From a virus: a stretch of 33,649 nt of DNA. This document shows, piece by piece, positions 3,233 through 33,649 of the stretch (position 1 is the stretch's first letter; every line of letters starts with the position of its first letter). The notes under the pieces were generated by a model. The model searched no databases. It worked only from the letters and a program-made list of their open reading frames with translations, and was not told where the DNA came from. The translations under genes and the position numbers were made by a program. The stretch is taken from IMG/VR virus record IMGVR_UViG_3300046536_000190, positions 1 through 33,649 of that record; one strand, written 5' to 3'.

Positions 3233-3328
3233 AGTTACCGATTCGCACGTCGCTATGTAAGTGCATGCGGTAAAGTGTACGTGGGCGTACCCACCCACGC
3301 GCCCGTATGTAAAGCCAGCAACCCCCAC

Positions 3329-3364
3329 AGCGTTCCGTGCGCCACCCTGCATGCACGGAACGCT
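3329..3364. repeat. Perfect 12-bp inverted repeat with 12-nt spacer
   Basis: AGCGTTCCGTGC (3329-3340) is the exact reverse complement of GCACGGAACGCT (3353-3364). The downstream side lacks a T-tract, so it is not a standard terminator. It may be a binding site for a dimeric protein such as the parG-like product, or a transcribed hairpin. Confidence 0.8.
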
Positions 3365-3386
3365 ATCGACGCTTCCCCCTGTATTT

Positions 3387-3434
3387 ACATGTGTATGTAC
3401 AGCTACACGTACGTATATACGCGTGTATGTACAG
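3387..3434. repeat. Alternating purine-pyrimidine tract with 12-bp direct repeats
   Basis: Bases 3387-3401 (15 nt) and 3405-3433 (29 nt) alternate strictly between purine and pyrimidine, a pattern that can adopt Z-form or flexible DNA. Two copies of GTGTATGTACAG (3391-3402, 3423-3434) lie 32 bp apart, about three helical turns, so a protein bound to both would sit on the same face. Confidence 0.7.
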
Positions 3435-3524
3435 GTGCGTAAATGTGCGGATTCGCACACTGAAATTTGCTAACAATTACGCATTGATTTATCGTTTACG
3501 GTCAGGCCATACATAGGGGTTACC

Positions 3525-4148
3525 ATGTCCGTGATCGCATTTGTGTCACAAAAGGGTGGGGTGGGGAAGTCGACCATTGCGCGTGCGTTGGCGCGCGAGG
3601 GCGCGGCTAACGGCATGCGCGTCAAGCTGGCCGACCTCGATACGCAGCAGTCGACCAGCATGTTCTGGCAGATCACGCGCACAGGTGCCGGGATCGAGCC
3701 GATCGTCTCCGCCGAGGCGTTCAAGACCGCTGCGCAGGCGCTCGCCATCGCGAAGCAGTACGACCTGCTGGTGATCGACGGCCCGGCGCGCACGAGCAAG
3801 GCCACACTGGAAATCGCGCAGGCAGCGAGCCTCGTGGTGCAGCCGAGCGGCGCGAGCATCGACGACCTGCGCCCGGCGGTGCGAGAGTTCCACGCGCTGG
3901 TGAAGGCGGGCATCCCGGCAGACCGGCTGCGCTTCGCCCTGTGTCGCATCGGCACCGACGCGGAGGAGGCCGACGCCCGCACCTACCTCACGGAGGCCGG
4001 GTACAAGGTGCTCGACGGGTGCCTCGTCGAACGGCCGGCGTACCGCCGCGCGCAGGGTGACGGCTACTCGGTGACCGAGACGCGCTACTCGGCGCTCAAC
4101 GCGCGCGCCGACGCGCTGATCCAGTCCCTCATCGACGCGGCAGGGTGA
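3525..4148 (+). CDS. parA: ParA-family partition ATPase, 207 aa
   Basis: ParA ATPases bind nucleoid DNA when ATP-bound and move plasmid copies apart through a partner bound at the centromere. The deviant Walker A motif KGGVGKST is at residues 10-17 (signature lysines K10 and K15), the A' motif ADLDTQQS at 36-43, and the Walker B strand LLVIDGPA at 81-88 with D85. At 207 aa and without an N-terminal HTH domain it fits the small type Ib class (ParF-like). The start at ATG 3525 follows AGGGG at 5-nt spacing. The parG-like gene starts four bases after its stop, so the two form one cassette, probably controlled through the repeats upstream. Presence next to rep implies stable low-copy plasmid maintenance. 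Confidence 0.95.
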   Translation: MSVIAFVSQKGGVGKSTIARALAREGAANGMRVKLADLDTQQSTSMFWQITRTGAGIEPIVSAEAFKTAAQALAIAKQYDLLVIDGPARTSKATLEIAQAASLVVQPSGASIDDLRPAVREFHALVKAGIPADRLRFALCRIGTDAEEADARTYLTEAGYKVLDGCLVERPAYRRAQGDGYSVTETRYSALNARADALIQSLIDAAG

Positions 4149-4152
4149 CGAG

Positions 4153-4461
4153 ATGGCGACATTCAAATCAAAGGGGTTTGGCGCTCCGCCGACGATCGAG
4201 GACGCGAGCCCGAACCTGGACGAGCCCGAAGCGTTTCAGCCTCCCGAAGATGAGCCACAGGCAGAGCAGGGCGCCGCGCATCGTTCGCCGTTTCCGCGGC
4301 GCCGCGAGCCGACCCAGCCGATGAACTTCCGCGTGCCGCTCGCGCTGTTCGAGGAGCTGCGAGACTTCACGAAGGAGAGCGAGATCCCGATGACCGAGAT
4401 CGCGGTGGCGGGCATTCGCAAGGAGCTGGCTGCGTTGAAGAAGAAGTACGGTGTGAAGTAG
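4153..4461 (+). CDS. Ribbon-helix-helix partition partner (ParG-like), 102 aa
   Basis: The N-terminal half (residues 1-56) is acidic, proline-rich and probably flexible. The C-terminal half (57-97) reads as a ribbon-helix-helix: a short strand MNFRVPLALF, helix FEELRDFTKES, turn IPMTEI, helix AVAGIRKELAALKKK. RHH proteins of this size and layout next to a small ParA act as centromere-binding proteins and autorepressors, with the mobile tail stimulating the ATPase. The gene follows parA by four bases. Sequence alone cannot separate a ParG, a ParB-analogue or a plain repressor, but its placement makes the partition role most likely. A putative promoter lies inside its 3' end. Confidence 0.85.
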   Translation: MATFKSKGFGAPPTIEDASPNLDEPEAFQPPEDEPQAEQGAAHRSPFPRRREPTQPMNFRVPLALFEELRDFTKESEIPMTEIAVAGIRKELAALKKKYGVK

Positions 4462-4464: not shown

Positions 4465-4470
4465 CGGGCC

Positions 4471-4632: not shown

Positions 4633-4708
4633 CATGCGCACTCGGAAACGCAACTAGCCGTCAGCCGGCAGTCGCAGGGGCGGGCAGACCGTTGGTTGCC
4701 TTTTCTGC

Positions 4709-4780
4709 AAAACTGCTTTTAATAAGATTTAATCTTGTTTTTAACAGCTTTCACACTGTTCAAGTCTTTGATTTTAAAGG
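4709..4780. other. AT-rich segment of the replication origin (likely unwinding element)
   Basis: This stretch is far richer in A and T than the rest of the window and lies immediately upstream of the iterons. It includes the inverted repeat AAGATT-T-AATCTT (4724-4736) and a second pair AACAG/CTGTT (about 4743-4760). In iteron plasmids the AT-rich block beside the iterons is where strands first open; assignment here is by position and composition. Confidence 0.65.
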
Positions 4781-4789
4781 CGAAAACTA

Positions 4790-4952
4790 GGCTTATTGGG
4801 GCTTTTGACCGGGTTGAAAGGGGCAACGACTCGGGTTATTGGGGCTTTCGGTCGGGTTATTGGGGCTTTTAATCCGGTTGAAAGGGGCAAATAGTCGGGT
4901 TGAAAGGGGCAACGACTCGGGTTATTAGGGCAAACGGTCGGGTTGGTGCCTG
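4790..4952. repeat. Iteron array, eight copies at 21-22 bp spacing
   Basis: Units with core GGGTTRWWRGGGC begin at about 4790, 4811, 4833, 4854, 4875, 4897, 4919 and 4940, spaced 21, 22, 21, 21, 22, 22 and 21 bp, about two helical turns. Two sequence flavours are mixed: GGGTTGAAAGGGGCAA (copies 2, 5, 6) and GGGTTATTGGGGCTTT (copies 1, 3, 4); copy 7 is intermediate and copy 8 is partial. Iterons bind Rep_3-type initiators, and the rep gene lies just downstream, which makes this the plasmid origin. Confidence 0.9.
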
Positions 4953-4954
4953 AT

Positions 4955-4963
4955 TGTGGATAA
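4955..4963 (-). promoter_or_regulatory. DnaA box
   Basis: TGTGGATAA on the + strand is the reverse complement of the consensus DnaA box TTATCCACA, a perfect 9-mer. It sits directly between the last iteron and the rep leader, where host DnaA would assist Rep in opening the origin. Confidence 0.85.
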
Positions 4964-4971
4964 CTTCGACT

Positions 4972-5042
4972 TTGCACCAAAGCGCAACTGGTGCTACCGT
5001 AAACCCAAGCCCCATGAACCCGATTGGATGCCCCAATGAGCG
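4972..5042 (+). promoter_or_regulatory. rep promoter with inverted iterons over the start codon (probable autoregulation)
   Basis: A plausible promoter is TTGCAC (4972-4977), 17 bp, TACCGT (4995-5000), with the inverted repeat GCACCA/TGGTGC (4974-4994) between the boxes. Downstream, AAGCCCCATGAACCC (5007-5021) is an inverted copy of the iteron with two changes. A second inverted core, GCCCCAATGA (5030-5039), lies 21 bp further on and contains the rep ATG. Inverted iteron-like operators next to rep are the usual means by which Rep dimers repress their own synthesis. Confidence 0.6.
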
Positions 5043-5794
5043 AGATTGCTGAAGTGTCCGCGCCGGAAGAAACGCGCACCTCGATAGGCGAGCGCTGGGT
5101 AACCTTCGCCAACGACCTGACGCGCGCCGCGCACAAGCTCACGCTCGGCGAAAAGCGGCTCGTTGCGGCCTGCATCGCGCAGGTAAAGTCCGACTCTCCG
5201 GTGCCGACGGCCTCGGAGCGCGACCGGAAGATGTTCACGGTAACCGCTGATCAGTACTGCGAACTCTACGATGTCGAGCGCGAGACAGCGTACGGCCAGA
5301 TGAAGACCAATGCGACGACGCTGTTCGGAAAAGAGATCCACACGGTCAGGCCCGACGGCCGCGCCGGGCGCCGTGTGCGCTGGGTGCAGGAAATCCAGTA
5401 CAACGAGGGCGAGGCCAGCGTGACGCTGATGTGGAGTGACGCACTCTGCCTGGCGCTGTTCAATCTCAAGGACCAGTTCACGACCTACAAGCTCCGGTAC
5501 GCGGCGAATTTGACGTCGAAGTACGCGTGGACGCTGTTCGAGCTGCTCGCCATGTGGCGCCGCCGCGGCAACTTCTCGATCGACGTGGATCAGTTCCGCG
5601 ATAAGCTCGACGTTAAGCCGTCTCAGCGAGCCAACTATAAGGAGCTGCGCACGCGGGTAATCGAACCGGCGGCCAAGGAGATCCACGAGAAGTGCGGCAT
5701 AGTCGTGACGGTCGTCGAAAAGAAGCGCGGCAAGCGTGTGACCGATCTGGCGTTTTCGTGGGAACCCGATCCGCAAGGCACGCTCAACTTCTGA
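5036..5794 (+). CDS. rep: Rep_3-family (RepB/RepA-type) plasmid replication initiator, 252 aa
   Basis: These initiators bind iterons as monomers, melt the adjacent AT-rich DNA and recruit the host replisome. The frame is also open from a TTG at 5024, but ATG 5036 is the natural start. The conserved opening of the first winged-helix domain is clear (AHKLTLGEKRLVAACIAQV, residues 32-50), followed by the central region with the TxYKLRYAANLTSKYAWTLF segment typical of Rep_3 proteins. The second winged-helix domain follows (FSIDVDQFRDKLDV ... YKELRTRVIEPAAKEI), then a basic patch KKRGKR near the C-terminus. Length and domain order agree with theta-replicating plasmid initiators. Iterons, DnaA box and AT-rich DNA lie immediately upstream, and inverted iterons overlap the start, indicating self-repression. 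The phage structural genes begin 110 bp after its stop. Confidence 0.95.
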   Translation: MSEIAEVSAPEETRTSIGERWVTFANDLTRAAHKLTLGEKRLVAACIAQVKSDSPVPTASERDRKMFTVTADQYCELYDVERETAYGQMKTNATTLFGKEIHTVRPDGRAGRRVRWVQEIQYNEGEASVTLMWSDALCLALFNLKDQFTTYKLRYAANLTSKYAWTLFELLAMWRRRGNFSIDVDQFRDKLDVKPSQRANYKELRTRVIEPAAKEIHEKCGIVVTVVEKKRGKRVTDLAFSWEPDPQGTLNF

Positions 5795-5903: not shown

Positions 5904-6311
5904 ATGACGCTCAGCTATTCGAACGAACTGAAGAACGCGCAGCAGGATCTGATCACCACGAAAGTCGGCGCGAACGGCTTCGTGAACTACTACGACGGCG
6001 CCCGGCCGACCAACGCCGACACCGCGGTCACCAGCCAGAACCTGCTCGCGCAGTTCGCGCTCGGCGCGGTGCTCGGCCCCGCCTCGGTGAATGGCGTGCT
6101 CACCGCCTCGGCTATCGCGGACGCGGCCGGCAAGGCCATCGCCGGCACCGGCAAGAGCGCGACGTGGTTCAGCCTGACGAAGGCCGACGGCACGCGGGTG
6201 ATCGACGGCACGCTCGCGCAGTCGGGCGGCGACATCACGATCGACAACCCGAGCATCGCGCAGAACCAGGCCGTCAGCCTGACGAGCCTTACCCTCACGA
6301 ACCCGAACTGA
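5904..6311 (+). CDS. Conserved phage protein, probable beta-rich virion-associated, 135 aa
   Basis: The protein opens MTLSYSNELKNAQQDLITTK and continues with a YYDGARP segment, a small hydrophobic helix block (ASAIADAAGKA), TWFSLTKADGTRVIDGTL and a C-terminal run of beta strands (GDITIDNPSIAQNQAVSLTS). This order is familiar from a family of small phage proteins found among head and tail genes, thought to be virion components but not experimentally assigned as far as I know. ATG 5904 follows GGGG (5894-5897) at good spacing. It is the first gene after the replicon module and marks the change to structural genes. Confidence 0.7.
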   Translation: MTLSYSNELKNAQQDLITTKVGANGFVNYYDGARPTNADTAVTSQNLLAQFALGAVLGPASVNGVLTASAIADAAGKAIAGTGKSATWFSLTKADGTRVIDGTLAQSGGDITIDNPSIAQNQAVSLTSLTLTNPN

Positions 6312-8841: not shown

Positions 8842-10572
8842 ATGCCGTCCGGACGCAAGCCCAACACCGAGTGGGTGATGGACGAGTCGAGCGTGTTCGA
8901 CCGCATGCAGATGGCGGTCGGCACCAGCTTTTCGCACGACGCCGTCCCGAAGTGGATCGAAGAAAACACGTACATCGGCGGCAAGAAGTACAGCTTCGTC
9001 GACCACGAGTACCAGCTCAAGATCCTCGCCTCGCGCAAGCCCGAGCAGTACACGAAGAAGTGCTCGCAGCTGGGGATCTCCGAGCTGAAGGTACGGCGTG
9101 TGCTCGCGCTGTGCTACATGATCCCGCACTTCTCCGCGATCCTGACGCTGCCCACATCGAACTTCGCCTCGATGTTCGCCAAGACCCGGATCGACCCGGT
9201 GATCCGTGAGAGTGAGCCTCTACGGGAGGCGGTCGTCGGCAACAACGACAGCACCGAGCTGAAGCAGATCGGCAGTTCGTTGCTCTACATTCGCGGCACA
9301 TTCACGCAGAACGCGGCGATCTCGGTGCCAGCCGACATGCTGCTGCACGACGAGGTGGACTTTTCGGATCAGGACGCGCTCACCAGCTTCCAGTCGCGGC
9401 TCACGCACTCGAAGCTGAAGTGGAAAATGAAGACGAGCACGCCGACCGTGCCGCGCTATGGGATCGACGACGAGTTCGCCAACAGCAACCGCTGGTTCAA
9501 CTTTGTGCGCTGCTGCCACTGCAACCACCAGTTCATCCCGAGCTACCAGGAGCACGTGGTGGTTCCCGGCTTTCACGGCGACATCTTCTCGCTGGACAAG
9601 ACGAAGCTGCCGCGCACGCGCTGGCGAGAGGCGTACCTGGCCTGCCCCAAGTGCAAAAAGCAGCCCGACCTGAGCATGGACTTTCGCGAGTGGGTCTGCG
9701 AGAACCCGGACGAGCAGCACAACGCCGACGGCACGCAGCTCTCCCCGTTCGACGCGCCGGGCTTCATCACCGTGCAGGATCTGATGCTCTCGCGCACGGG
9801 CTACAAGCGGCTGACAGACTTCAAGAACTTCGGGCTCGGGCAGACCGACGAGGATGAGCTGAGCGGCATCCAGCTGGCCGACCTCGACATGATGCAGATG
9901 GTCTACCTGCCCGGGCTGGTAGGTTGCGTGCTGGGCATCGATATGGGTACGACCTGCCACGTGTCCGAGTGCTATATCGACGCAGGTAACCACCTGATGC
10001 AGCGGCGCGTGCACCGCATCAACTACAAGGAACTGGACGTCGAGCTGGCGAAGATCGTCCAACGCTGCAAGCCGATTGTAATGGTGATGGACTCGCAGCC
10101 GTACACCGAGACGGTCTACCGGCTCCAGCAGAAGTACAAGAACCTCTACGCGTCCGTCTACGTCAGGGCCAAGGGCATGCGGCCGTACCGGCTGCTCGAC
10201 GAGGAGGAGGACAAGGTCGACGCGCTGTTCGACGAGCGGCAGATCAACGTCAACCGGAACATCGCGCTCGACTTCCTGATGGAGGACATCCGCGCCGGCG
10301 TCGTGGGCAACGACCCGATGCAGCCCGAGGAAGATCTGCAGGAATTCCGCGACCACATGCGCGACATGCGCCGCGTGCGGATGGAAGGCGGCAAGAACCA
10401 GCCCGACATGGATCTGTTCCAGTGGGTGAAATCGAAAGTGGAGATCGACCACATGCACCACGCACTGCTCTACGCATGGGTGGCCTCGAAGCTGCGCCTT
10501 GCCGCGCGCCCGATAATTCAGGTGTCCAGCCTCGCGTTCATGTCCCGGATGCGCCTGAAGACCACCATCTGA
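8842..10572 (+). CDS. Terminase large subunit, lambda gpA-like (GpA family), 576 aa
   Basis: The large terminase packages DNA into the prohead using an ATPase domain and cuts it with a nuclease domain. The ATPase part has a P-loop-like CSQLGISE at residues 74-81, which lacks the usual Lys-Thr/Ser pair and so is deviant, and Walker B MLLHDE at 166-171 (D170, E171). Cysteines C224, C225, C227 and C268, C271 (RCCHC, CPKC) form a likely zinc-binding insert as in gpA relatives. The nuclease part shows an RNase H-like strand LGIDMG with D367, MVMDSQ with D417 and a late DHMHHALLYAW segment. Length and order match the family. The ribosome site AAGGAA is 7-8 bp upstream. Confidence 0.92.
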   Translation: MPSGRKPNTEWVMDESSVFDRMQMAVGTSFSHDAVPKWIEENTYIGGKKYSFVDHEYQLKILASRKPEQYTKKCSQLGISELKVRRVLALCYMIPHFSAILTLPTSNFASMFAKTRIDPVIRESEPLREAVVGNNDSTELKQIGSSLLYIRGTFTQNAAISVPADMLLHDEVDFSDQDALTSFQSRLTHSKLKWKMKTSTPTVPRYGIDDEFANSNRWFNFVRCCHCNHQFIPSYQEHVVVPGFHGDIFSLDKTKLPRTRWREAYLACPKCKKQPDLSMDFREWVCENPDEQHNADGTQLSPFDAPGFITVQDLMLSRTGYKRLTDFKNFGLGQTDEDELSGIQLADLDMMQMVYLPGLVGCVLGIDMGTTCHVSECYIDAGNHLMQRRVHRINYKELDVELAKIVQRCKPIVMVMDSQPYTETVYRLQQKYKNLYASVYVRAKGMRPYRLLDEEEDKVDALFDERQINVNRNIALDFLMEDIRAGVVGNDPMQPEEDLQEFRDHMRDMRRVRMEGGKNQPDMDLFQWVKSKVEIDHMHHALLYAWVASKLRLAARPIIQVSSLAFMSRMRLKTTI

Positions 10573-11808: not shown

Positions 11809-11874
11809 CAGCGGCTTTCTTGCGTAGTCCTAACTAATCCAGTAAATTTCGGCTCAACACACGGGGTGAGGTAT

Positions 11875-19015: not shown

Positions 19016-19016
19016 C

Positions 19017-22139: not shown

Positions 22140-22179
22140 CGTCTGCGCAACGATAATGCGGACAACTAAGGAGTTGGCG

Positions 22180-25100: not shown

Positions 25101-26682
25101 CGCGCTGCTCAACATCTCGACGATCGAGAACTCGCGCACGACGATCCTGCAGGCGCAGGACGCGCTCTACGGCAACGCCGCCAGCATGGACACGGCGCGG
25201 CTGGACGCGCTCGTCGAGCGCGTCACGATCGAGAAGGCCCAGTATGACCAGGCGCTGCAGATGGAGCAGCTCAAGGACTCGGGCGCCAGCGTGGACGAAG
25301 TGGCGTACGCACGCGAGGCCAACAGCCTGAAGCTCGCGCAGCAGATCTTCGAGATCGAGAAGGAGCGGCAGAAACTGCTGATGGACAACGCGTTCACGAT
25401 TCAGAACGTGTACCAGCAGACGCTCAACTCGATCGACGCGCAGATCGCGGCGCTGGAGAAGGGCCGCACGACGCTCGCCGACCAGGCGGTGACGGGTTTC
25501 TCGGGCGGCTTCCAGAACGCGAACAACGCGCTGTTCCAGTCGTTCAAGAGCAAGGACGCCGCGAACAAGTTCACGACGCAGAACTACACCGGCGAGATCG
25601 GCAGCTCGATCTACGACTCGATCACCAAGAGCCTGTCAAGCGAGCTGACGGAATCCACGCTGAAGGGCTTCCAGGGGCTGCTGAAGACGACCGGCGCTGT
25701 GTCGCAGGCCGACATCGCGCGCGACAAGGCGCAGCAGGATCTGGCGCTCAACACGCAGACGATGACGCAGGCGTTGTCGATCACGATCCCCGAGAAGCTC
25801 GACCAGCTGATCGGGCTGAACAACGGCACGATCACGCCGACCGGGCCGGTGGGCAACGCCGCCCTGCCCTCGAATCAGCAAAGCGCGACCACAGGCAGCG
25901 GCGCGCCCTACGCATTCGGCGGGGGCACCGCGCAGGCGAGCCAGGATCTGGTGGCCTCGCAGGAGCAGGCAGGAAAGGCTCAAGCGGCCATGTCCGACTT
26001 CGGCAGCACCTCGTCAGACGTGCTGAAGCAGTTCGGCCTGACAGCGACGAGCGCTTCGTCGCTGCTCTACACAGGCGTGATCGCGGCCACCTCTGGCAGT
26101 TCGAAGGCGATCAAGAACTACGTCGTCTACGCGAGCGCGCAGCTGCTCGAACTGTATGCGATCCAGAAGCTGGTTGGGCTGGTCAGCTCCTTCGGCGCGA
26201 GTGGCAGCGAGGCGGCCGGCGCGTCGGCCACCAGTACGCCTGACGACCTGATCGCAGGCTACGGCCACGCGGACGGCGTCGCATCGGTCGACAAGAACGG
26301 CTACATCACGGCGCCGGGCGGCCCGCGCGACGACCGCGGCCTCGCATGGCTGTCGGACGGCGAGTCGGTGCTTACGGCTGCGGCCACGAAGTATTACGGC
26401 GCAGACCGCATCGCGCGCATGAACAAGATGTCGCTGCCGCGTTTCGCAGACGGCCGCGTTGGTGCCGGTGCTGGTAGTGGCGCAGCGGGTGGCTCGGGCA
26501 TCTCCATCCAGTTCGACATCGACGCATCTGGCAGCGGCGGCAAAGGGTCGGCGAACGAGGCGGCCAAGTCAGGCCAGCTGCAGAAAGAACTCGAATCCGC
26601 GGTGCTCGGGGTGTTCAGCAAATACTCGGCAAGCGGTGGCCCTATCTACTCAACCATTAAGCAGATCGCAGGGCGTCCGTAA
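22180..26682 (+). CDS. Tape measure protein, gpH-like, 1500 aa
   Basis: The tape measure sets tail length and is ejected with the DNA. The frame opens at ATG 22156, but ATG 22180 follows AAGGAG (22168-22173) at 7 nt and is preferred. Residues about 10-420 are charged coiled coil with internal repeats of 62-69 residues (AAHAEALKVNKALDD and AAHSEALKINRTLDA). Then comes a domain like lambda gpH's TMP_2 region (RELTTIIKDVITGEWSRFGG) with a hydrophobic segment FDGVLGLVGGSILATGLAMG. More coiled coil follows (about 700-1100). The C-terminal section (GVASVDKNGYITAPGG, DRGLAWLSDGESVLTAAATK) matches the lambda-type tape measure C-terminal domain. By the usual 0.15 nm per residue rule the tail would be about 225 nm if uncleaved. 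Its stop shares bases with the next ATG. Confidence 0.95.
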   Translation: MSEQAGGVKLEVELNYDKALVALRSFQAEVAKVENSGAQISKMQEALVQGNAMMQKSLSSLQALAAEQEALTRQTEERAAAEKAQESAADAANRAARNAMRAQIKDSEYLNKTLAQRQQILARISAATRGQDVSSLNADQRGVLGARYSNLAVDEFANGGLANSTRAQQQIAEREAQAAAQAAADKEMSAAHAEALKVNKALDDKAAADRIANLETIRALERQLEADSIAGERARNEAIVTLRQAQEAEITAAHSEALKINRTLDAEAAAAQKAESAARVADLETIRLLENQLAVDAVAREQARNDAIVAQRAAEEAELTALHTRALAENAALDKAAAAERAEALAAQQAQMAEAAAEQIAQIQARVAADKVANAERLAQLAAENAALREQMALEAARAAEVKRSADYETSTISSKMKMLKSIAVAEAQVGKLSDNPTIAAKFPTAALSDYAMIGAGSDAYHKFRAELEAVGKGSASAATGIKATAQEARELTTIIKDVITGEWSRFGGSVTRLLTLSGTFDGVLGLVGGSILATGLAMGALAAAAVKGASDQNQLNLALAQTGNYAGVTESGLNDIAESATHMGGTIGEARETVLQLAQSGRYTADQIKLIADAASAIGGAGGNVENFLKQIDGLKDNPTDGVYKLNEQFHFLTASTYEAIAAAERHGDAIKASQLAIEAFADTQEERGKQVIENAGLITRAWHGVKDAISEALDKLLSIGKVETTAEKIATLTAKIQEVKNRPIGEYGINDTSGMERDLADLQKKMELENQNAQTQGKLADATLKQVQATKLLDAERKKLRTPADKRRDEEELLRKGLAPLVGLPADQGGITQKDVDDLVAKAALKYHDKAPKRGHIDPTDYNAAQEQAKLDADALKNAQDLLNIRKQLGLAISEESYAHIEQLALIAQESDYESRREKILKEIKNAERNGNPNSKRQLLDELDILDEQNDAKKAQIELDYDRDEVQRNIQRALLNISTIENSRTTILQAQDALYGNAASMDTARLDALVERVTIEKAQYDQALQMEQLKDSGASVDEVAYAREANSLKLAQQIFEIEKERQKLLMDNAFTIQNVYQQTLNSIDAQIAALEKGRTTLADQAVTGFSGGFQNANNALFQSFKSKDAANKFTTQNYTGEIGSSIYDSITKSLSSELTESTLKGFQGLLKTTGAVSQADIARDKAQQDLALNTQTMTQALSITIPEKLDQLIGLNNGTITPTGPVGNAALPSNQQSATTGSGAPYAFGGGTAQASQDLVASQEQAGKAQAAMSDFGSTSSDVLKQFGLTATSASSLLYTGVIAATSGSSKAIKNYVVYASAQLLELYAIQKLVGLVSSFGASGSEAAGASATSTPDDLIAGYGHADGVASVDKNGYITAPGGPRDDRGLAWLSDGESVLTAAATKYYGADRIARMNKMSLPRFADGRVGAGAGSGAAGGSGISIQFDIDASGSGGKGSANEAAKSGQLQKELESAVLGVFSKYSASGGPIYSTIKQIAGRP

Positions 26683-27035
26683 TGGCAACTGATCTTGAGA
26701 TCTACGACTGGCTCGTGACCTACGGGGCGAAGAACACGGTTACGCCCGACGTCCTGTCGGCGGCGTTCGGCGACGGCTACTCGCAGGATATCCCGAACGG
26801 CATCAACACGACCGCGGACTCGTGGAGCATCACCTCGCGGCTGAGCCCGACGGATGCCGACGACGCATTCGAGTTCCTCCGCCGGCAGGGCGGCGCCAAG
26901 CGCTTCTGGTGGACGCCCCCGCGCTACGTCGACCCGATCAAGGTGAAGACCACAGGCGCGATCGAGAAGGGCGAGGAGAGCGCCGGATACGTCACCGTGA
27001 CGGCCACATTCAAACAGGTCTTTGACCCGGACTGA
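26682..27035 (+). CDS. Minor tail protein gpM-like, 117 aa
   Basis: The motifs of the Phage_min_tail family are present: FGDGYSQDIPNGIN (29-42), a conserved tryptophan in DSWSI, and KRFWWTPPRY (73-82). gpM belongs to the tail tip complex assembled around the end of the tape measure. TAATG overlap with the tape measure gene. Length equals lambda gpM (109 aa) within a few residues. Confidence 0.93.
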   Translation: MATDLEIYDWLVTYGAKNTVTPDVLSAAFGDGYSQDIPNGINTTADSWSITSRLSPTDADDAFEFLRRQGGAKRFWWTPPRYVDPIKVKTTGAIEKGEESAGYVTVTATFKQVFDPD

Positions 27036-27039
27036 TGCC

Positions 27040-27741
27040 ATGACCACAGCCAATACGATTCAGGCAGAGGTGATGAAGCTCGCGCCTGACGCGCTGATCG
27101 AGCTTTACATTCTCGACCTCAACCCGATCGGCCTCGCCTCGATCGAGTACTTCCATTGCGGAACGAACGAGTACCGCGAGCCGATCACGTTCCAAGGCAT
27201 CACCTACCAGCCGTTCCCGGTGCAGATCACCGGGTTCGAGCTGAACGGCCAAGGGCAGCTGCCCCAACCAAAGTTGTCGGTGAGCAACACGAACGGCGCG
27301 ATCTCGCAGACGATCCTTGAATACCAGGACATGGTCGGCGCGAAGATCACCCGCAAGCGCACCTTCGCGAAGTTCCTCGACGGCGAGCCTGACGCGAACC
27401 CGACACAGGAGTTCCCGCTCGACATCTTCTACATCGGGCGCAAGACGGCTGAGAACGGCGACATCGTGCAGTTTGACCTCGTGAGCACCTTCGACCTCAC
27501 CGGGATCACGCTGCCCGGCCGGCAGATCATCCAGAACAGCTGCACGTGGGTCTACAAGAGCGCGGAGTGCAGCTGGGTGCCCGTCACCGGCTACTACTTC
27601 GACGCGAACGACCAGCCCGTCCTGCCGGGCGCAGACATTTGCGGCAAGCGGCTCGACAGCTGCAAATGCCGGTTCGCACGCTTCGGCGTCAACCCGGACC
27701 TCCCCTTCGGCGGCTTTCCTGGAGTGCGACGCTATGTTTGA
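27040..27741 (+). CDS. Minor tail protein gpL-like with Fe-S cysteine set, 233 aa
   Basis: ATG 27040 is preferred to a TTG at 27022. The N-terminal half matches the Phage_tail_L pattern (ALIELYILDLNPIGLASIEY, FQGITYQPFPVQITGFELNG, LPQPKLSVSN). The C-terminal part carries cysteines C168, C177, C201 and C208 with spacing 8, 23 and 6. This is almost the same as in lambda gpL, whose four C-terminal cysteines bind an iron-sulfur cluster. A fifth cysteine, C210, is extra. gpL is a tail tip component. The last 8 bases overlap the next gene. Confidence 0.93.
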   Translation: MTTANTIQAEVMKLAPDALIELYILDLNPIGLASIEYFHCGTNEYREPITFQGITYQPFPVQITGFELNGQGQLPQPKLSVSNTNGAISQTILEYQDMVGAKITRKRTFAKFLDGEPDANPTQEFPLDIFYIGRKTAENGDIVQFDLVSTFDLTGITLPGRQIIQNSCTWVYKSAECSWVPVTGYYFDANDQPVLPGADICGKRLDSCKCRFARFGVNPDLPFGGFPGVRRYV

Positions 27742-28477
27742 TGTGAACCTGGTCCGAGAGATGCTCGACATCGCCCGCGCAGAGGCCGAGCAGCGCCCCG
27801 ACGCGCCGCAGGAGCGCTGCGGTGCCGTGATCGAGACCGACGGCGTGCAGAGCTTGATCGAGTACGCGAACGTGCACCCGGAGCCGCGGGAGTTCTTCCG
27901 CATCGGTGCCGTCGAGTGGGGCAAGGCGTTCCTGAACCACAACGTGGTGGCCGTATGGCACACGCACCCGAGCACGAGCGCTGAGCCCACGCAAGCGGAC
28001 CTCGTGTACCTCGAACGTACGCGCCTGCCTTGGCACATCGTGAGTGGCTGGGACGGCAGCCACAGCTACACCGAGCCCACTGGCTACGTCGCGCCGTACG
28101 AGGGCCGCGACTTCCATCACGGCATCCTCGACTGCTACGCGCTGTGCCGCGACTGGTACAGCCGCGAGATGGGGATCGAGCTGCCTGACGTCGATCGCGA
28201 GTATCTGTGGTGGAACAAAGGCGCAAACCTGTACATCGACCAGTTCAAGGATCACGGCTTCGTCGAGGTCGCGCCCGAGGTCAACGTGAAAAATCTTCGC
28301 CGCGGCGACGGATTGCTGATGCAGGTTGCCTCGCGCGTGCCGAATCATGGTGCAATTTATCTCGGCGACGGTAAAATCCTGCATCACGTTCAGGACAAGC
28401 TGTCCGAGATCACGAACTACGGCGGCGACTGGTTAAAGAGGACTACTAACCATTTGCGACACAAGAGTCAGCTATGA
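27734..28477 (+). CDS. Tail tip protein gpK-like: JAMM peptidase plus NlpC/P60 domain, 247 aa
   Basis: Two enzyme domains are joined. Residues 1-110 are a JAB/MPN domain with the metal motif HTHP-x9-AD: H76, H78 and D89, and an upstream glutamate in QERCGAV. Residues 120-240 are an NlpC/P60 cysteine peptidase with the catalytic cysteine in LDCYALCRDWY (C134) and the histidine in NHGAIYLGDG (H205). Such gpK proteins are tail tip components, and the NlpC part is thought to cut peptidoglycan crosslinks at infection. The start overlaps the gpL gene by 8 bases and the stop overlaps gpI by 4. Confidence 0.94.
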   Translation: MFDVNLVREMLDIARAEAEQRPDAPQERCGAVIETDGVQSLIEYANVHPEPREFFRIGAVEWGKAFLNHNVVAVWHTHPSTSAEPTQADLVYLERTRLPWHIVSGWDGSHSYTEPTGYVAPYEGRDFHHGILDCYALCRDWYSREMGIELPDVDREYLWWNKGANLYIDQFKDHGFVEVAPEVNVKNLRRGDGLLMQVASRVPNHGAIYLGDGKILHHVQDKLSEITNYGGDWLKRTTNHLRHKSQL

Positions 28478-29115
28478 GCCGAGAAATCGACAACACGACC
28501 GTTGAGCTGGTGCTGGGCGGAAAGCTCGGCGAGAAGTACGGGCGCTCGCACCACCTGGTCGCGAGAACGCCCGTGCAGGCGTTCCGGCTGATGTGTCTCA
28601 ACTACCCGGAGTTCAAGCAGGAAGTGATCGACGACTCACTGGCCGGCGCTGAGTATCAGTTCGTGGTGGACGACCGCCGCAGCGTCGGAGAGAAGGAGCT
28701 GACCTTCCCGATCGGGGGCGGAAAGCTGCTGTTCGCTCCGGTCATTGGCGGCGCAGGCGGCAAGCTCGGCGGCGTAATCACGACGGTAATCGGCGTTGTG
28801 CTGATCGCTGTGGCGACCGTTTTTCAGCAGTACGAACTATATCCGGCACTGACGCCGATGCTCTTTGGCGCCGGCATTTCGCTGACGCTCGGCGGCATCA
28901 CATCGCTGTTGACCACGGTGCCCAAGGCCAACAGCGCGGGCGCAGGCGACAGCCTCAGCTCGTTCTACTTCAATGGCGCGGCCAATACACAGCAGCAAGG
29001 CGCGCCGGTGACGCTCGTCTACGGTCGCATGCTGGTCGGCTCGACGGGTATCTCGGCGTCGCTGCAGGCGATCGACCTGTCGCAGGCACCTGCTGAAACG
29101 GGGAACCTCTCTTGA
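28474..29115 (+). CDS. Tail assembly protein gpI-like, 213 aa
   Basis: The N-terminal domain (VELVLGGKLGEKYGRSHHLV, TPVQAFRLMCLNYPEF) is the beta-grasp-like start of the lambda tail I family. Two hydrophobic glycine-rich segments follow (about 98-117 and 126-147, VITTVIGVVLIAVATVFQQY and LFGAGISLTLGGITSLL). The C-terminus includes NTQQQGAPVTLVYGRMLVGS, the family's typical VP(L/V)xYGR-type ending. gpI is required for tail tip assembly and, in lambda, is not kept in the virion. It lies between K and J as in lambda. Confidence 0.93.
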   Translation: MSREIDNTTVELVLGGKLGEKYGRSHHLVARTPVQAFRLMCLNYPEFKQEVIDDSLAGAEYQFVVDDRRSVGEKELTFPIGGGKLLFAPVIGGAGGKLGGVITTVIGVVLIAVATVFQQYELYPALTPMLFGAGISLTLGGITSLLTTVPKANSAGAGDSLSSFYFNGAANTQQQGAPVTLVYGRMLVGSTGISASLQAIDLSQAPAETGNLS

Positions 29116-32100
29116 ACGCTCGCGTACCTTTCAACAGGCGCCCTCTCGCGGGCGGCTTTCCCGCTCCGAAGCGCGTCATAGCGCGCATCCCGAGCGAGCC
29201 GCCGCGCGGAGCTGGCGGCGGAGGCAAGGCAGGCGGTGGTTCGTCAACCACGCCAACGGAAGATCCGGACTCGCTGCAGTCCGTAGCCTTTGTCTCGGTG
29301 CTCGATCTACTGTGCGAGGGTGAGATCCAGGGTTTGGTGAAGGGCGGCTTCAGCCCGAGCGTGGCCGGCGTGGAGTCGGACTCGATCTTTCTGGACAACG
29401 TGCCGGTCACGTCCAACGGCTCGCCGAATTTCAACGGCTACACGGTGGCGTGGGTCAACGGGACACAGGCGCAGGGCGTCATCCCAGGCTTCGGATCGGT
29501 CTACTCGGCCGTCACGCTCGGTTCGGAGGTCAAGGCAGGTGTGCCGATCCAGGCGTCGGTCGATAACCCGGAAGCGAACGCTGTGGTCGTCACAGCGTCG
29601 GTGTCGCAGCTGTATTCGGCCAACACTACCACCGGTGACGTCAAGGGCACCACAGTCGACCTGGTCTTCGAGTACCGGCCCACAGGCAGCGTCACGTGGA
29701 TTCAGGGCGCGGCGATGACCATCACAGGAAAGACGCGCAGCAAGTATCAGCGCAGCGTGCGCTTTGACCTGACCGGCACCGGCCCGTGGATCGTACGCTG
29801 CCGCCGCATCACTGCAGACTCCACCAGCTCGGCGCTGGTGAACAACACCTTCTTCGACGTGGTCGAGTCGGTGGTCGATCAACGGCTACGCTACCCGAAC
29901 TCGGCGCTCGTCGGGCTGACCATCGACGCGCGGCAGTTCAGCAGCGTGCCCTCGCGCAGCTACCTGGTAGATGGGCTGATCATCCGCGTGCCGAACAACT
30001 ACGATCCGGATCTGCGCACGTACAGCGGCGCGTGGAACGGGGGTTTCAAGCTCGCATTCTGCAATAACCCGGCATGGTGCTTCTACGACCTGATCTCGTC
30101 GACGCGCTACGGGCTGGGCAACTACCTGAGCGACGCGACGGTAGATACGACGGCGCTGTACCAGATCGGCCAGTACTGCGACGAGATGGTGCCCGACGGG
30201 TTCGGCGGCATGGAGCCGCGATTCACCTGCAACATGGTGATCAACAACCCGAAGGAAGCCTACCAGTGCATGCAGGACATGATCTCGATCTTCCGGGGCA
30301 TGACCTACTGGGCGGGCGGCAACATCCTCGTGACGCAGGACGCGCCGAAGACGCCGGTGAAGAAGTTCTCGCGCGCGAACGTCGTCGGCGGCAAGTTCAC
30401 GTACCAAGGCACCGCGCTCAAGGACCGCCACAGCGTCGCGCTCGTGCGCTGGAACGACCCCGCGCAGCTGTACCAGCAGAACACCGAGTACGTCGAGAAC
30501 GCAGACGCCCTCGCCCGCTTCGGCGTGAAGGTCACCGAGATCATGGCGGTGGGCTGCACCTCGCGCGGGCAGGCGCACCGGCTCGGCCAGTGGGCGCTCA
30601 TCAGCGAACTGGCCGACACCGACCAAGTGATGTTCCAGGCAGGCATGGACGCTGCGATGCTCACGCCAGGCGAGGTGATCTACGTCGCGGACCCGGTGCG
30701 CAGCTCGAAGCGCATTGGCGGTCGCGTGCTCAAGGCCGACCTGAACACCGTGACGCTGGACGCGCCGGTGGTGCTCGACGCTGGTCAGACGTACTCTCTG
30801 CTCTACTACGACGGCAACGGCGACAGCTACCAGACGCAGGTGCTCAACACCGCCAACACGACGGCGCTGCTGACCTTCACGGCGCCGGTGACGAATCCGC
30901 CGCAGCCGGGCTTCATGTGGGTGCTCACAGGTTCGAACCTCGTGCCGCAGACTTTTCGCGTCCTTAACGTTAAGGAGTCCGAAAAGAACCTGTTCGACGT
31001 CACGGCCGTCACCTACAACGCATCGAAGTACGCTGCGATCGACTTCAATACCAAGCTGCAGATGCCGCCGGTTGGCTATGGCGACGCGCTCGGTGCCGCG
31101 ATCCCGAAATTCTGGAGCCTGACAGAGACGACGTTCCTCGCGGCGCCCGGCGTGATCGGCTCGAAGATCATCATGAGCTGGTCGGGCAACACGACGCACT
31201 TCATGATCCAGTGGCGCGTGAACGGCGGCATCTGGATGAGCGACACGACGCGCACGCCGGGCTACGAGATCGACGGCGTGACCAAGGGCGACATCTACGA
31301 CTTCAAGATCTACGGTATCGCCGCGGATGGCGCGCTGTCGGCCTCGCTCGACGAGACGTACACGATCAACGGCAGCAGTGCGCCGCCCGGTGCGCCGACG
31401 TCGCTCACCGCGCAGGCCGACTTCCGCTCGGCGAAACTGAACTGGGCTGCGCCGCCCGACCTCGACCTGGCTTACTTTCAGGTGGCGTGGGCGGGATCGA
31501 ACAACCTCGCCGCGGCAGGCATCGTCGGCGACAAGATCGGCAGCACGAGCTGGACAGTGGGCACTCTGACGCCGACGGTGCCTGTCTACTTCTGGGTGCG
31601 CGCGGTCGACACGAGCGGCAACGTCGGGCCGTGGAACAGCAACGTCGGCACGGTCTGCGTGCCGCTGCAAGGCGGCACGCTCGACATCGAGAACCTGGCG
31701 GTCACCAACGCGAAGATCGCGAACGCAGCGATCGGCACGGCGCAGATCCAGAACGCTGCGATCACCTCGGCGCTGATTGCCAACGCGCAGATCGTCGCGG
31801 CGCACATCGCCAACGCGCAGATCCAGAACGCACACATCCAGGATCTGTCGGTCAGTACGTTCAAGATCGGCGCGAACCAGGTGACGACGATGGTTTCAGT
31901 TTCGTCGGGCAACAACGTCTCGACGTCGTACACCGGCAGCGGCGGCATGATCCTCGTTCTCGCCAGCGGGCCTCTGAGTTCGGCCAGCACCGCGAGCATT
32001 ACCTTGAACGGCGGAGTTCTTGCCAGCGGCACGATCAGTACAGGCGGCGGGACGACTATCTCAACCATCACGCTCACCGCGGTGACCTCCTTTAACGGGA

Positions 32101-32171
32101 CCGTGACAATGGCCACCACCGGGTTCGGGCTTGGCGTGACAACCCTGACAATGTTTGAGGCTAAACGATGA
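29112..32171 (+). CDS. Central tail tip / host specificity protein gpJ-like, 1019 aa
   Basis: gpJ forms the tail tip and, in lambda, its C-terminus binds the receptor. The start is TTG 29112 in a TTGA overlap. Its N-terminus has the family signature: a Gly-rich stretch (GAGGGGKAGGGSS), then DSLQSVAFVSVLDLLCEGEI and GLVKGG. The middle contains the baseplate-hub-like part (LAFCNNPAWCFYDLISSTRY, YCDEMVPDGFGGMEPRFTCN). A fibronectin III-like domain (PPGAPTSLTAQADFRSAKLN) starts near residue 757. Nine 5-residue repeats AxIxx (867-911) precede a Thr/Ser-rich beta C-terminus of about 100 residues, which is the most likely receptor-contact part. Slightly shorter than lambda gpJ (1132 aa). Confidence 0.94.
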   Translation: MNARVPFNRRPLAGGFPAPKRVIARIPSEPPRGAGGGGKAGGGSSTTPTEDPDSLQSVAFVSVLDLLCEGEIQGLVKGGFSPSVAGVESDSIFLDNVPVTSNGSPNFNGYTVAWVNGTQAQGVIPGFGSVYSAVTLGSEVKAGVPIQASVDNPEANAVVVTASVSQLYSANTTTGDVKGTTVDLVFEYRPTGSVTWIQGAAMTITGKTRSKYQRSVRFDLTGTGPWIVRCRRITADSTSSALVNNTFFDVVESVVDQRLRYPNSALVGLTIDARQFSSVPSRSYLVDGLIIRVPNNYDPDLRTYSGAWNGGFKLAFCNNPAWCFYDLISSTRYGLGNYLSDATVDTTALYQIGQYCDEMVPDGFGGMEPRFTCNMVINNPKEAYQCMQDMISIFRGMTYWAGGNILVTQDAPKTPVKKFSRANVVGGKFTYQGTALKDRHSVALVRWNDPAQLYQQNTEYVENADALARFGVKVTEIMAVGCTSRGQAHRLGQWALISELADTDQVMFQAGMDAAMLTPGEVIYVADPVRSSKRIGGRVLKADLNTVTLDAPVVLDAGQTYSLLYYDGNGDSYQTQVLNTANTTALLTFTAPVTNPPQPGFMWVLTGSNLVPQTFRVLNVKESEKNLFDVTAVTYNASKYAAIDFNTKLQMPPVGYGDALGAAIPKFWSLTETTFLAAPGVIGSKIIMSWSGNTTHFMIQWRVNGGIWMSDTTRTPGYEIDGVTKGDIYDFKIYGIAADGALSASLDETYTINGSSAPPGAPTSLTAQADFRSAKLNWAAPPDLDLAYFQVAWAGSNNLAAAGIVGDKIGSTSWTVGTLTPTVPVYFWVRAVDTSGNVGPWNSNVGTVCVPLQGGTLDIENLAVTNAKIANAAIGTAQIQNAAITSALIANAQIVAAHIANAQIQNAHIQDLSVSTFKIGANQVTTMVSVSSGNNVSTSYTGSGGMILVLASGPLSSASTASITLNGGVLASGTISTGGGTTISTITLTAVTSFNGTVTMATTGFGLGVTTLTMFEAKR
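31710..31844 (+). repeat. Nine 15-bp coding repeats (pentapeptide AxIxx) in the gpJ-like gene
   Basis: Units read AKIAN, AAIGT, AQIQN, AAITS, ALIAN, AQIVA, AHIAN, AQIQN, AHIQD. A strict five-residue period with Ala at position 1 and Ile at position 3 suggests a short beta-helical or trimeric stalk before the tip domain. Confidence 0.8.
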
Positions 32172-32581
32172 GCGACACGACAGTTACGCGCGACGAGACG
32201 CAGACCGACTACACAATCGTGGATGCGGCGGGCCGTGTGCAACAGGTCGGCAACATGCCTGCGTGGATGGTCGCTGACCAGGACGCGCACGTGCCTGACG
32301 GCGGCCACATTCTGCCGGGCAGGGCGGATTTCTATGCAGACTACGCCGACAGCAGCACCACGCCGTGGTCTCTGAAGGCACGCCCGCAAAACTCTGCAGT
32401 CCTGAGCGGTATGAAAATCTCTAACGTGCCGAACCCCTCTGCCGTTACAATCGGCGGCGATGAGCCGGTCATGGTCACCGACGGCGAGGTCGAGCTGGAA
32501 TTCACCCAGCCGGGCACGTTCGATATTAAGGTGTCCTCATGGCCTATGCTCGACGTAACCTTTAGCGTGACCGTGCCGTGA
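32168..32581 (+). CDS. Tail-end hypothetical protein, 137 aa
   Basis: ATGA overlap with the gpJ-like gene. Beta-rich: DYTIVDAAGRVQQVGNMPAW near residue 15, then KARPQNSAVLSGMKISNVPN, and a closing Ig-like segment GEVELEFTQPGTFDIKVSSW. The C-terminal layout resembles small Ig-like domains that accompany tail fibres. It may be a tip-associated or fibre-attachment protein; the role is inferred only from its position after gpJ. Confidence 0.6.
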   Translation: MSDTTVTRDETQTDYTIVDAAGRVQQVGNMPAWMVADQDAHVPDGGHILPGRADFYADYADSSTTPWSLKARPQNSAVLSGMKISNVPNPSAVTIGGDEPVMVTDGEVELEFTQPGTFDIKVSSWPMLDVTFSVTVP

Positions 32582-32772
32582 AGATCACACACAACCCCGA
32601 CCATCGACCGCTGCGCGCGGCGGCGTACCCCAGCGTTGGCGACCAGCTCGACGCGCTGTGGAAGATCGTTGAAGCGCTGACGACACAGACACCTCCCCCG
32701 CCTGAAGCGCTGGCGGTGTACGCGCAGGTGCAGTCGGTGAAGGCGAAGTACAAGAACAGGAGTACGAAATGA
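32578..32772 (+). CDS. Small conserved phage protein with YPSVGDQLDALWK motif, 64 aa
   Basis: GTG start at 32578 in a GTGA overlap. The protein carries PLRAAAYPSVGDQLDALWKI (11-30) and ends in a helix with LAVYAQVQSVKAKYKNR. The YPSxxDQLDxLW core is widespread among small proteins encoded between tail tip and fibre genes of proteobacterial phages, and is also seen in some tail fibre assembly contexts. Function not established. Its stop overlaps the next gene's ATG (32769). Confidence 0.7.
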   Translation: MKITHNPDHRPLRAAAYPSVGDQLDALWKIVEALTTQTPPPPEALAVYAQVQSVKAKYKNRSTK

Positions 32773-33176
32773 GTGGCGCGGCCTACGACCTGAAGATCGA
32801 GCAGGGGGACGACTGGAGCCCGATCTGGACGTTGCGCTATCGCGGCGCGCAGACCCCGTTCAACCTGACGGGCTACACCGCGAAGATGCAGATCCGCTCG
32901 ACCTACTACGCAGCGGCGAAGCTGGTCGACCTGGTGTCGCCGGCGGGAATCATCCTCGGCGGCGTCGCTGGCACGATCCAGCCGGTGATCAGCGACGCTC
33001 AGACGATGACGCTGATCCCGGCAGGGGCGCCGGCCCCGAACCCGGTGAACGTCAAGATCAACGACCGGGCGTACACGCTGGTAGGCGTGTACGACCTGAA
33101 GATCACCAGCGCAGGCGGCGTGACGACGACTGTCGCCGGTGGCCGTGTGCTCGTGTCGCCCGACGTAACCCGATAA
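32769..33176 (+). CDS. Tail-region structural-type protein, 135 aa
   Basis: The protein begins AAYDLKIEQGDDWSPIWTLR, continues NLTGYTAKMQIRSTYYAAAK and ends with VGVYDLKITSAGGVTTTVAG and GGRVLVSPDVTR. The pattern IxQGDDWxxxxxxxxxxGxPxxLTGYTxxMQIR ... G.YDLxxT...G.V..xxxGxV is a known small phage beta-sandwich family (BppU-like or fibre-adaptor type by general resemblance). A role in attaching the side fibre that follows is plausible, not shown. ATGA overlap with the previous gene. Confidence 0.68.
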   Translation: MSGAAYDLKIEQGDDWSPIWTLRYRGAQTPFNLTGYTAKMQIRSTYYAAAKLVDLVSPAGIILGGVAGTIQPVISDAQTMTLIPAGAPAPNPVNVKINDRAYTLVGVYDLKITSAGGVTTTVAGGRVLVSPDVTR

Positions 33177-33188
33177 ACAGGACCAGAC

Positions 33189-33649
33189 ATGGCATCGGAT
33201 CTCGAACTTGTAGTAGACGAAACCGTCATCGAGCTGGTTGACTCTGACGTAGGCGGCACGGCTGCGGGCGCGGCTGCGGGCAGCGCAACTGCGGCGGCTA
33301 GTAGCGCGAGCGCGGCGAGCGCTTCGAAGGACGCTGCAGCTACCAGCGCAGCCGCCGCACTCGCGTCGAAAAACGCAGCTGGCACCAGTGAGACGAACGC
33401 GGCCACGAGCGCAGCTGCCGCACTCGCGTCGAAAAACGCAGCTGGCACCAGTGAGACGAATGCAGCTACCAGCGCAGCCGCCGCACTCGCGTCGAAAAAC
33501 GCAGCTGGCACCAGTGAGACGAATGCAGCTACCAGCGCAGCCGCCGCACTCGCGTCGAAAAACGCAGCTGGCACCAGTGAGACGAATGCAGCTACCAGCG
33601 CAGCCGCCGCACTCGCGTCGAAAAACGCAGCTGGCACCAGTGAGACGAA
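33189..33649 (+). CDS. Side tail fibre, N-terminal part (3' partial)
   Basis: ATG 33189 starts a short acidic head (MASDLELVVDETVIELVDSD) followed by a long Ala/Ser/Thr tract with 21-residue repeats (KNAAGTSETNAATSAAAALAS). Such repeats, three heptads each, are typical of the stalk of lambda Stf-like trimeric side fibres. The receptor-binding end lies beyond the window. The gene follows the small tail-tip genes, as stf follows J and lom in lambda. Confidence 0.8.
   Translation, partial: MASDLELVVDETVIELVDSDVGGTAAGAAAGSATAAASSASAASASKDAAATSAAAALASKNAAGTSETNAATSAAAALASKNAAGTSETNAATSAAAALASKNAAGTSETNAATSAAAALASKNAAGTSETNAATSAAAALASKNAAGTSET
33366..33649 (+). repeat. Near-identical 63-bp tandem repeats in the fibre gene, 4.5 copies visible
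   Basis: Units start at 33366, 33429, 33492, 33555 and 33618 (cut by the window edge). The first unit differs by a few silent changes (for example CGCGGCCACG for TGCAGCTACC); the others are identical, indicating recent duplication or gene conversion. Confidence 0.92.

Follow-up and report, generated by a model that had tools for sequence, protein, structure and literature searches.

Phage-plasmids are an established kind of element, according to the accessible text of two papers (PMC12977533; PMC10879196), and the available part of one of them describes the typed groups P1, N15, SSU5, AB_1 and cp32 as joining phage to plasmid functions, typically without an integrase (PMC12977533). An excerpt of the report on Burkholderia phage KS14 states that putative lysogens yielded its prophage in the form of plasmid DNA (PMC3091744). 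In cluster A mycobacteriophages, as set out in the accessible portion of the source, either an integrase or parABS plus one of several replication systems is carried, and these are exchangeable within the lineage (PMC7157519). Phages with ParA, some with an integrase as well, are reported in the available text of a glacier virome study (PMC4490671). Among the Lana/SHOU24-type siphophages, PMBT3 is described as virulent and devoid of lysogeny genes in the accessible sections of its report (PMC8421299), and the available text of the Lana paper uses none of the words lysogen, temperate and integrase (PMC7368026). Here we analyse IMG/VR record IMGVR_UViG_3300046536_000190, all 33,649 bases of which are called the window below, and propose that it is probably part of a phage-plasmid built on a Lana/SHOU24-like siphophage chassis of ~85 kb with an added maintenance cassette. 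The best reading of our results is that this is an apparently undescribed lineage within a known kind of element, with an exchangeable maintenance cassette and a replicon swap of unusual clarity.

The window is a linear fragment without end repeats. Its plus strand runs through small phage genes, an HU-like gene and a tRNA-like stretch into ParA, a partner, an iteron origin and Rep_3, and continues through head, connector and tail genes as far as J and an incomplete tail-fibre gene. The original prediction, made from the letters of the window, had placed ParA, iterons, a DnaA box and Rep_3 directly before terminase, portal and capsid, all on one strand; PHROG, Pfam and motif matches bear this out, and no recombinase or transposase family was matched among the window proteins scanned. 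The plasmid module and its upstream flank consist of the following features:

1653..1991, plus strand: gene for an HU/IHF-like DNA-binding protein (Pfam PF00216, 24.6 bits, cut-off 22.4)
2807..2882, plus strand: tRNA-like sequence at the boundary of phage genes and plasmid module (Rfam RF00005, 31.6 bits, gathering threshold 29)
3233..3524, no strand: intergenic repeats before parA in two-copy families, a candidate centromere or promoter
3525..4148, plus strand: parA, partition ATPase (PHROG 164, E 9e-31; Pfam AAA_31/CbiA above cut-off)
4153..4461, plus strand: putative ribbon-helix-helix (RHH) partition partner or centromere-binding protein (position 3' of parA; weak fold evidence)
4690..4785, no strand: AT-rich stretch, probable duplex-unwinding region (read directly; a similar stretch lies in the sibling locus L007)
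4786..4945, plus strand: iterons at 21-22-nt spacing (repeat search and pattern matches)
4955..4963, minus strand: single DnaA box TTATCCACA (motif search)
5013..5038, minus strand: inverted iteron half across the rep start, probable operator for Rep autoregulation (read directly)
5036..5794, plus strand: rep, Rep_3 iteron-binding initiator (Rep3_N, 121 bits, cut-off 22.4; Rep3_C, 54 bits, cut-off 21.1)

The replication part of this module has the makeup of a Rep_3 iteron replicon, with Rep3_N and Rep3_C domains in the initiator and iterons upstream of its gene; Rep relatives with solved structures include 1hkq, 1rep and 2nra. Between the window and L007, rep has a ratio of nonsynonymous to synonymous substitution (dN/dS) of 0.107 at a dS of 0.88. 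Rep has therefore been kept as a working protein under purifying selection. L007 also retains the origin architecture, with the AT-rich stretch, diverged iterons at the same place (3537-3674), TTATCCACA and an inverted repeat at the rep start, the last reported by the repeat tool in L007 and not in the window. In the window, GGTTRWWRGGGS is present six times at 4812-4931, 21-22 nt apart; it occurred on average 0.02 times in 100 shuffles and never six times, although this control is not independent, since the pattern was composed after the repeats had been seen. It replaced an earlier pattern that gave three matches, one of them outside the origin. A degenerate DnaA box turns up at least once in 24 of 100 shuffles. 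Plasmid records that match Rep number at least 5,000 and span many genera, those of Caballeronia, Pandoraea and Paraburkholderia included; KS14 has a related Rep too, and the host may belong to the Burkholderiales. The Rep_3 origin is compact, about 1.1 kb, and amenable to a direct mini-replicon test.

Partition is represented by a ParA that is 75% identical to that of phage Touem01; its gene is preceded by two repeat pairs, one of 22 nt (3381 and 3413, 86% alike) and one of 19 nt (3230 and 3440, 79% alike). The small open reading frame (ORF) that follows parA was read as an RHH partner in the original prediction, an identity that stands only as plausible. No PHROG or Pfam match was found at E 0.01; its C-terminal half shares 43-46% identity, across 47-48 residues, with the partner ORF in L007 and with that in another sibling locus, L005. 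An AlphaFold model of the protein is poor overall (predicted template modelling score 0.33) and better at residues 61-100, with block means of 87-92. Foldseek returned 26 matches to this model, none of them significant (E 1.9-9.8) and ParB of plasmid pCXC100 among them. Most of the 26 are proteins that we take, by name, to be of the RHH type, which makes an RHH partner plausible.

The element as a whole can be seen in relatives of the window, of which an IMG/VR terminase search found seven, with best segments 89-99% identical. One of them, G003 (85,240 bp), aligns to the window in blocks of 86-99% identity and has the same join of plasmid and virion genes. A second, G002 (37,909 bp), agrees with G003 in two long blocks at 99.0 and 99.997%, with a 237-bp block near its left end at only 84% and ~1.1 kb unaligned. 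Two alignment blocks pair positions 82703-85240 of G003 with window 1-2455, and the first base of G003 corresponds to window 2461; the two ends of G003 lie five bases apart within the window. G002 spans the same point: it covers G003 79801-85240 to one side of a garbled join of ~40 bp and 26-31111 to the other. Because the ends of G003 meet in the window and G002 crosses the junction, the genome closes at about 85.2 kb, and G003 is a closed genome of ~85 kb without chromosomal flanks. Flanking chromosomal genes, which the original prediction had named as one of two findings that would speak against it, are thus excluded for G003. No tyrosine recombinase (PF00589), serine recombinase (PF00239) or protelomerase (PF16684) was matched in G002-G006, of which only G003 is near-complete, and with the protelomerase absent a linear phage with telomeres was rejected. 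At the junction there is an inverted repeat with a 10-nt loop (window 2450-2490, the G003 ends, G002 about 6777-6817), which has arms of ~17 bp in G003 if its five missing bases are those of the window, is imperfect in the window and is garbled into poly-G/poly-C in G002. It probably marks a sequencing or assembly drop-out at a hairpin rather than a telomere or cos site.

Past the right end of the window, G003 completes the tail fibre and continues with endolysin and spanin genes and then a long minus-strand arm. This arm encodes thymidylate synthase, methyltransferase, an SbcD-like nuclease, nucleotide phosphatase, ligase, a Dda-like helicase, Holliday resolvase, DNA polymerase, dNMP kinase, exonuclease, a primase-like protein, a helicase and MazG; by our reading, an ORF near the SbcD-like gene resembles SbcC. 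In G003, phage genes for structure, packaging and lysis thus stand with plasmid replication and partition genes; no integrase was matched in G002-G006, and the co-occurrence of both modules in the same elements supports the phage-plasmid interpretation first offered for the window.

The case for a module that works as a unit is strongest in its siblings, in which an initiator and a partition pair are present each time but are not the same ones. L007, with a TerL 89% identical to that of the window, has a Rep_3 86.7% identical over 248 residues, a partner and a different ParA, for which the only match to window ParA covers 59 residues at 42%. L005 (TerL 91%) has a ParA of the L007 type (57%), a partner and a RepL-type initiator (PF05732, 25 bits, cut-off 20.3), with a GIY-YIG gene after it; this 11.2-kb fragment has no Rep_3. 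In L006, a fragment of 5.4 kb, a RepL match fell below the cut-off. In the window, L007 and L005 the module always lies between the HU-like gene, for which both siblings have matching DNA, and the terminase, and in L005 as in the window it is 5' of the gene for the 135-aa virion protein. Both ParA and Rep have therefore been exchanged for other types at one and the same site.

Across the wider lineage, a distant TerL alignment found 116 relatives, 80 of which were kept. Profile scans with Rep3_N, AAA_31, PF00589, RepL and HTH_3 covered 50 of 81 fetched TerL-bearing loci, many of them fragments, and scans with PF00239, PF16684, S24 and Bro-N covered 28; both sets were picked for length and nearness, and fragmentary records may hide genes from these counts. 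Rep3_N was found in 3 of the 50 records (G002, G003, G006) and RepL in two, one of them above the cut-off. An AAA_31 ParA occurs in six, namely the siblings G002, G003, G004 and G006 and the distant G026 and G033, and a tyrosine integrase in five (G011-G013, G023, G024). HTH_3 was matched at E 0.01 in 13 of 50, with 4 over the cut-off and none of them in G002-G006. In a TerL tree of 56 rows, the window, G003, L005 and L007 form one clade (100/100) with L021 next, and the integrase bearers fall in two separate places. The ParA-partner pair of G026 lies between ligase and endolysin genes (1706-2679; L103) and the tyrosine integrase of G012 between SbcC-like and endolysin genes (61.1-62.2 kb; L100), both near the junction of the lysis and replication arms; the cassette of the siblings is located elsewhere. 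A relative with 39% TerL identity (L095, about 734 kb on CAMFIB010000001.1) sits on a 1.7-Mb contig of a metagenome-assembled genome, where about 52 kb separate it from the nearest tyrosine recombinase, and is perhaps an integrated prophage.

These observations are consistent with a model in which virion, lysis and lytic replication genes come from the Lana/SHOU24-like chassis and the cassette, placed between the tRNA-like stretch and terminase, serves plasmid maintenance. While quiescent, the element would be carried as a plasmid circle. Rep_3, the iterons and the DnaA box, together with host machinery, would sustain low-copy theta replication, and ParA with its small, probably RHH partner would distribute copies to both daughters. 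Upon induction, or in a productive state, the phage polymerase, primase and helicases would take over and the genome would be packaged. We infer plasmid maintenance in a living host from the module together with KS14, with its related Rep and its prophage recovered as plasmid DNA; the quiescent state, its control and lysogeny as an episome would follow from the same model. The relatives of the chassis, Lana, PMBT3 and SHOU24, were isolated as phages, PMBT3 being the one described as virulent, and the siblings offer a natural comparison of a change in inheritance mode, with the same virion genes and a different initiator and ParA at one site.

Several results weigh against this interpretation. 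No repressor was recognised: HTH_3, S24 and Bro-N were not found in G002-G006, nor was a repressor in ten G003 proteins scanned; most early genes are of unknown function. The closure of G003 also fits a circularly permuted or concatemeric lytic genome. Touem01 has a closely similar ParA and no match to this Rep, so ParA alone is no proof of a plasmid state; the dN/dS of 0.70 between the L007 and L005 ParA genes indicates weaker constraint, and the RHH assignment of the partner gained no match by sequence search. As for the host, TerL aligned to only two loci in the genome collection, at 30 and 39% identity, yielding no host genome, and among 72,556 plasmid records the capsid protein had no match.

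Some of these points would be expected of a virulent Lana-like phage in which Rep_3 and the iterons serve as an extra lytic origin and ParA places the DNA, with no plasmid stage or a leaky carrier state. The chassis resembles Lana and PMBT3, the latter virulent and without lysogeny genes in the accessible text (PMC8421299), no repressor was found, and Touem01 has the ParA without a match to the window Rep. Nonetheless, the Lana, PMBT3 and SHOU24 records lack Rep_3 and AAA_31, and the module is therefore not needed for that lytic cycle; in L005 a different plasmid-type initiator takes the place of Rep_3 alongside ParA and a partner, an arrangement better suited to maintenance than to lytic growth. 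We give this explanation a small chance of being right. That the window is a defective plasmid derived from a phage and retaining only remnants of virion genes seems very improbable. The window is incomplete and the element is known here from its genes alone, but the head, tail, lysis (endolysin, spanin) and replication genes of G003 form long open frames, its coding density is about 90% by our own gene calls, and the dN/dS of TerL is 0.13-0.16.

An integrated prophage that lost its flanks, with the plasmid genes as passengers, is more improbable again. It finds some encouragement in the tyrosine integrases of G011-G013, relatives at about 40% TerL identity, and in the relative on a 1.7-Mb contig, and it is opposed by the self-closure of G003 without chromosomal DNA or any tyrosine or serine recombinase match. 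Least probable of all is a chimeric assembly of plasmid and phage, a possibility that the original prediction had itself raised and that a single contig such as the window invites; the Rep-terminase join recurs in G002, G003 and L007 with Rep_3, and in equivalent form in L005 with the RepL-type initiator, all from other IMG/VR samples, which refutes it. We thus continue to favour a phage-plasmid with an exchangeable maintenance cassette.

The virion genes of the window, all on the plus strand downstream of rep, are as follows:

5904..6311, plus strand: virion structural protein of 135 aa (PHROG 3758)
8842..10572, plus strand: terminase large subunit, TerL (PHROG 675, E 3e-92)
11866..13647, plus strand: portal (PHROG 3753)
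13644..14645, plus strand: S49 head maturation protease (PF01343, 119 bits)
15873..17063, plus strand: major capsid protein (PHROG 3922)
18170..19972, plus strand: head-tail connector and tail terminator genes, weak matches (PHROG 161, 169, 179; E 4e-4 to 6e-6)
20026..21255, plus strand: tail tube (PF18906, 115 bits)
21344..22113, plus strand: tail chaperones G and T (PHROG 8233, 3817)
22156..26682, plus strand: tape measure protein (PHROG 24)
26682..32171, plus strand: minor tail genes M, L, K, I and central fibre J (PHROG 14, 18, 30, 32, 31)
33189..33649, plus strand: 5' part of a tail-fibre gene reaching the contig end (PHROG 745/1419)

The siphophage had been called lambda-type. Its tail follows the lambda order through M, L, K, I and J, with weak matches for Z and U, but the S49 protease and the SHOU24/Lana-type capsid led us to reject a lambda-type head module. 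The tail-fibre ORF has 799 aa in G003, and at the contig end of the window (33335-33649) this gene contains five 63-bp tandem repeats. A low-complexity, Ala-rich ORF of 506 aa without a PHROG match occupies 6325-7845, in a stretch of 71-74% GC; its counterpart in G003 was called at 485 aa. The tRNA-like stretch at 2807-2882, matched by Rfam and not called as a tRNA by ARAGORN, may be a weak or degenerate tRNA.

One candidate for keeping the lytic genes silent is a set of palindromes outside the window, in the early arm of G003. Between 63,396 and 80,853 (L012, L013) this arm has 25 exact copies of TCGGAAATTTCCGA, the inner 12-mer of which has a first-order expectation of 0.005. At 16 of the 25 copies a Shine-Dalgarno sequence and an ORF start follow within 45 nt, as against 9% of random positions, and most of these start-linked copies read TCGGAAATTTCCGA-AGGAG. 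In G008 (TerL 58%), TTCGGAATATTCCGAA occurs 11 times, with the arms of the G003 palindrome and a symmetric change of two central bases; the 16-mer is found in 10 IMG/VR contigs and is repeated only in that of G008.

We surveyed 25 records chosen for length, two of them fragments of 52 and 56 kb, counting as an array at least 5 exact copies of one palindrome with arms of 6-7 nt and a spacer of 0-8. Arrays of 5-25 copies were present in eight (G003, G008, G010, G022, G026, G028, SHOU24 and pMaq22A_3p), with sequences that differ by genome; the exceptions are the clearly related palindromes of G003 and G008, and that of G028, which shares TTCGGA. A start follows 4-11% of random positions, and by that measure the palindromes are well associated with starts in G008 (7/11), G010 (9/19), SHOU24 (7/12) and G028 (3/5), weakly so in G022 (3/13) and G026 (4/21) and not in pMaq22A_3p (1/9). 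None of four integrase bearers has an array, compared with three of four ParA bearers and 5 of 17 others. As a strict rule, arrays were rejected as a marker of the plasmid form: no ParA hit accompanies the arrays of SHOU24 and G022, and G033 shows the reverse.

Where such palindrome arrays occur in the wider lineage, they suggest early-gene control of an uncharacterised kind. A broader idea is that what the lineage exchanges as a cassette is its entire mode of inheritance, be it an integrase, partition by itself, partition joined to Rep_3 or to RepL, or nothing recognised. Its integrase-free plasmid members would be silenced by genome-specific palindromes at the translation starts of early genes, and these would co-evolve with a regulator, as the shared arms and symmetric central change of G003 and G008 may suggest. 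We offer this tentatively, as an extension with some chance of being correct. The operators of P1 offer a point of comparison. Silencing of the kind envisaged would, if real, be distinct from these operators and, as far as the accessible descriptions go, from the stoperators of cluster A and the start-associated sequences of cluster K mycobacteriophages. The latter, for which the available text proposes a role in translation, are the closest analogue that we found (PMC3203893).

Viewed against described phages, the virion of this element belongs to a broad Lana/SHOU24-like lineage, with homologous TerL, portal and capsid and the same layout. TerL and major capsid are 27-33% identical to those of Lana, PMBT3, UAntarctica and SHOU24 (78-88 kb), the capsid alone 28-31%, and Lana and UAntarctica share the G003 arrangement of a structural plus-strand arm, lysis genes and a long minus-strand replication arm. 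The likeness does not extend to the DNA similarity of a genus such as Lanavirus or Maxrubnervirus: window 1-25000 had no close DNA match among 50,697 phage records, searched by megablast, or 72,556 plasmid records. Nor does it extend to the cassette, since the window Rep matches no phage of this type, and Rep_3 and AAA_31 are absent from the records taken as Lana (G038), PMBT3 (G034) and SHOU24 (G032). In UAntarctica the region upstream of TerL, about where the cassette lies here, contains small ORFs and three annotated tRNA genes. All 31 phage records matched by the capsid protein are Vibrio or Pseudomonas phages, and on the capsid protein alone we rejected membership in P1, N15, SSU5, AB_1 or cp32. 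Novelty, as first claimed, holds in part. Shared hits to Rep and capsid in the same genomes had been proposed as support for a lineage; in phage records Rep matched 11 and the capsid protein 31, with no overlap, and the two co-occur in the IMG/VR relatives. Among the matches listed, the open-access literature gave no Lana/SHOU24-like phage-plasmid and no described group with this pairing of modules, whereas the kind itself is known from KS14.

Parts of the element recur in otherwise different replicons. Touem01, deposited as a Pseudomonas syringae phage, is a 91.6-kb phage with a tail sheath gene that shares the partition pair, with the closely similar ParA and a weakly similar small partner (L019, 20001-20919), and has no match to the window Rep. 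The complete 85,702-bp circular plasmid record pMaq22A_3p of Methylobacterium aquaticum (NZ_AP014707.1; L097/L098) carries genes distantly homologous to those for terminase (27%), portal, tail proteins and polymerase, as well as ThyX and a ParA with a small downstream ORF; unlike this lineage, it is annotated with a P4-family primase. Although catalogued as a plasmid, by its gene content it looks like a phage-plasmid, and among the open-access matches listed we found no paper that calls it one.

The closest parallels for the way of life proposed here come from KS14 and cluster A. The Rep_3 initiators of KS14, a plasmid prophage of the Peduoviridae, and FLC10 are 38-39% identical to that of the window (KS14, 39%), and KS14 also encodes a ParA, but this is only 31% identical and differently placed. 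KS14 is a 32-kb P2-like phage; it is not among the best 40 TerL matches, and its P2-like virion module is not shared, as the window capsid matches the Lana/SHOU24 type only and not KS14. The ParA proteins of some cluster A phages are ~29% identical to that of the window. In the cluster A phages where parABS, with repA or without it, takes the place of an integrase, parABS is colinear with the integration cassette and the hosts are actinobacterial, whereas here the exchangeable Rep/ParA cassette precedes the terminase.

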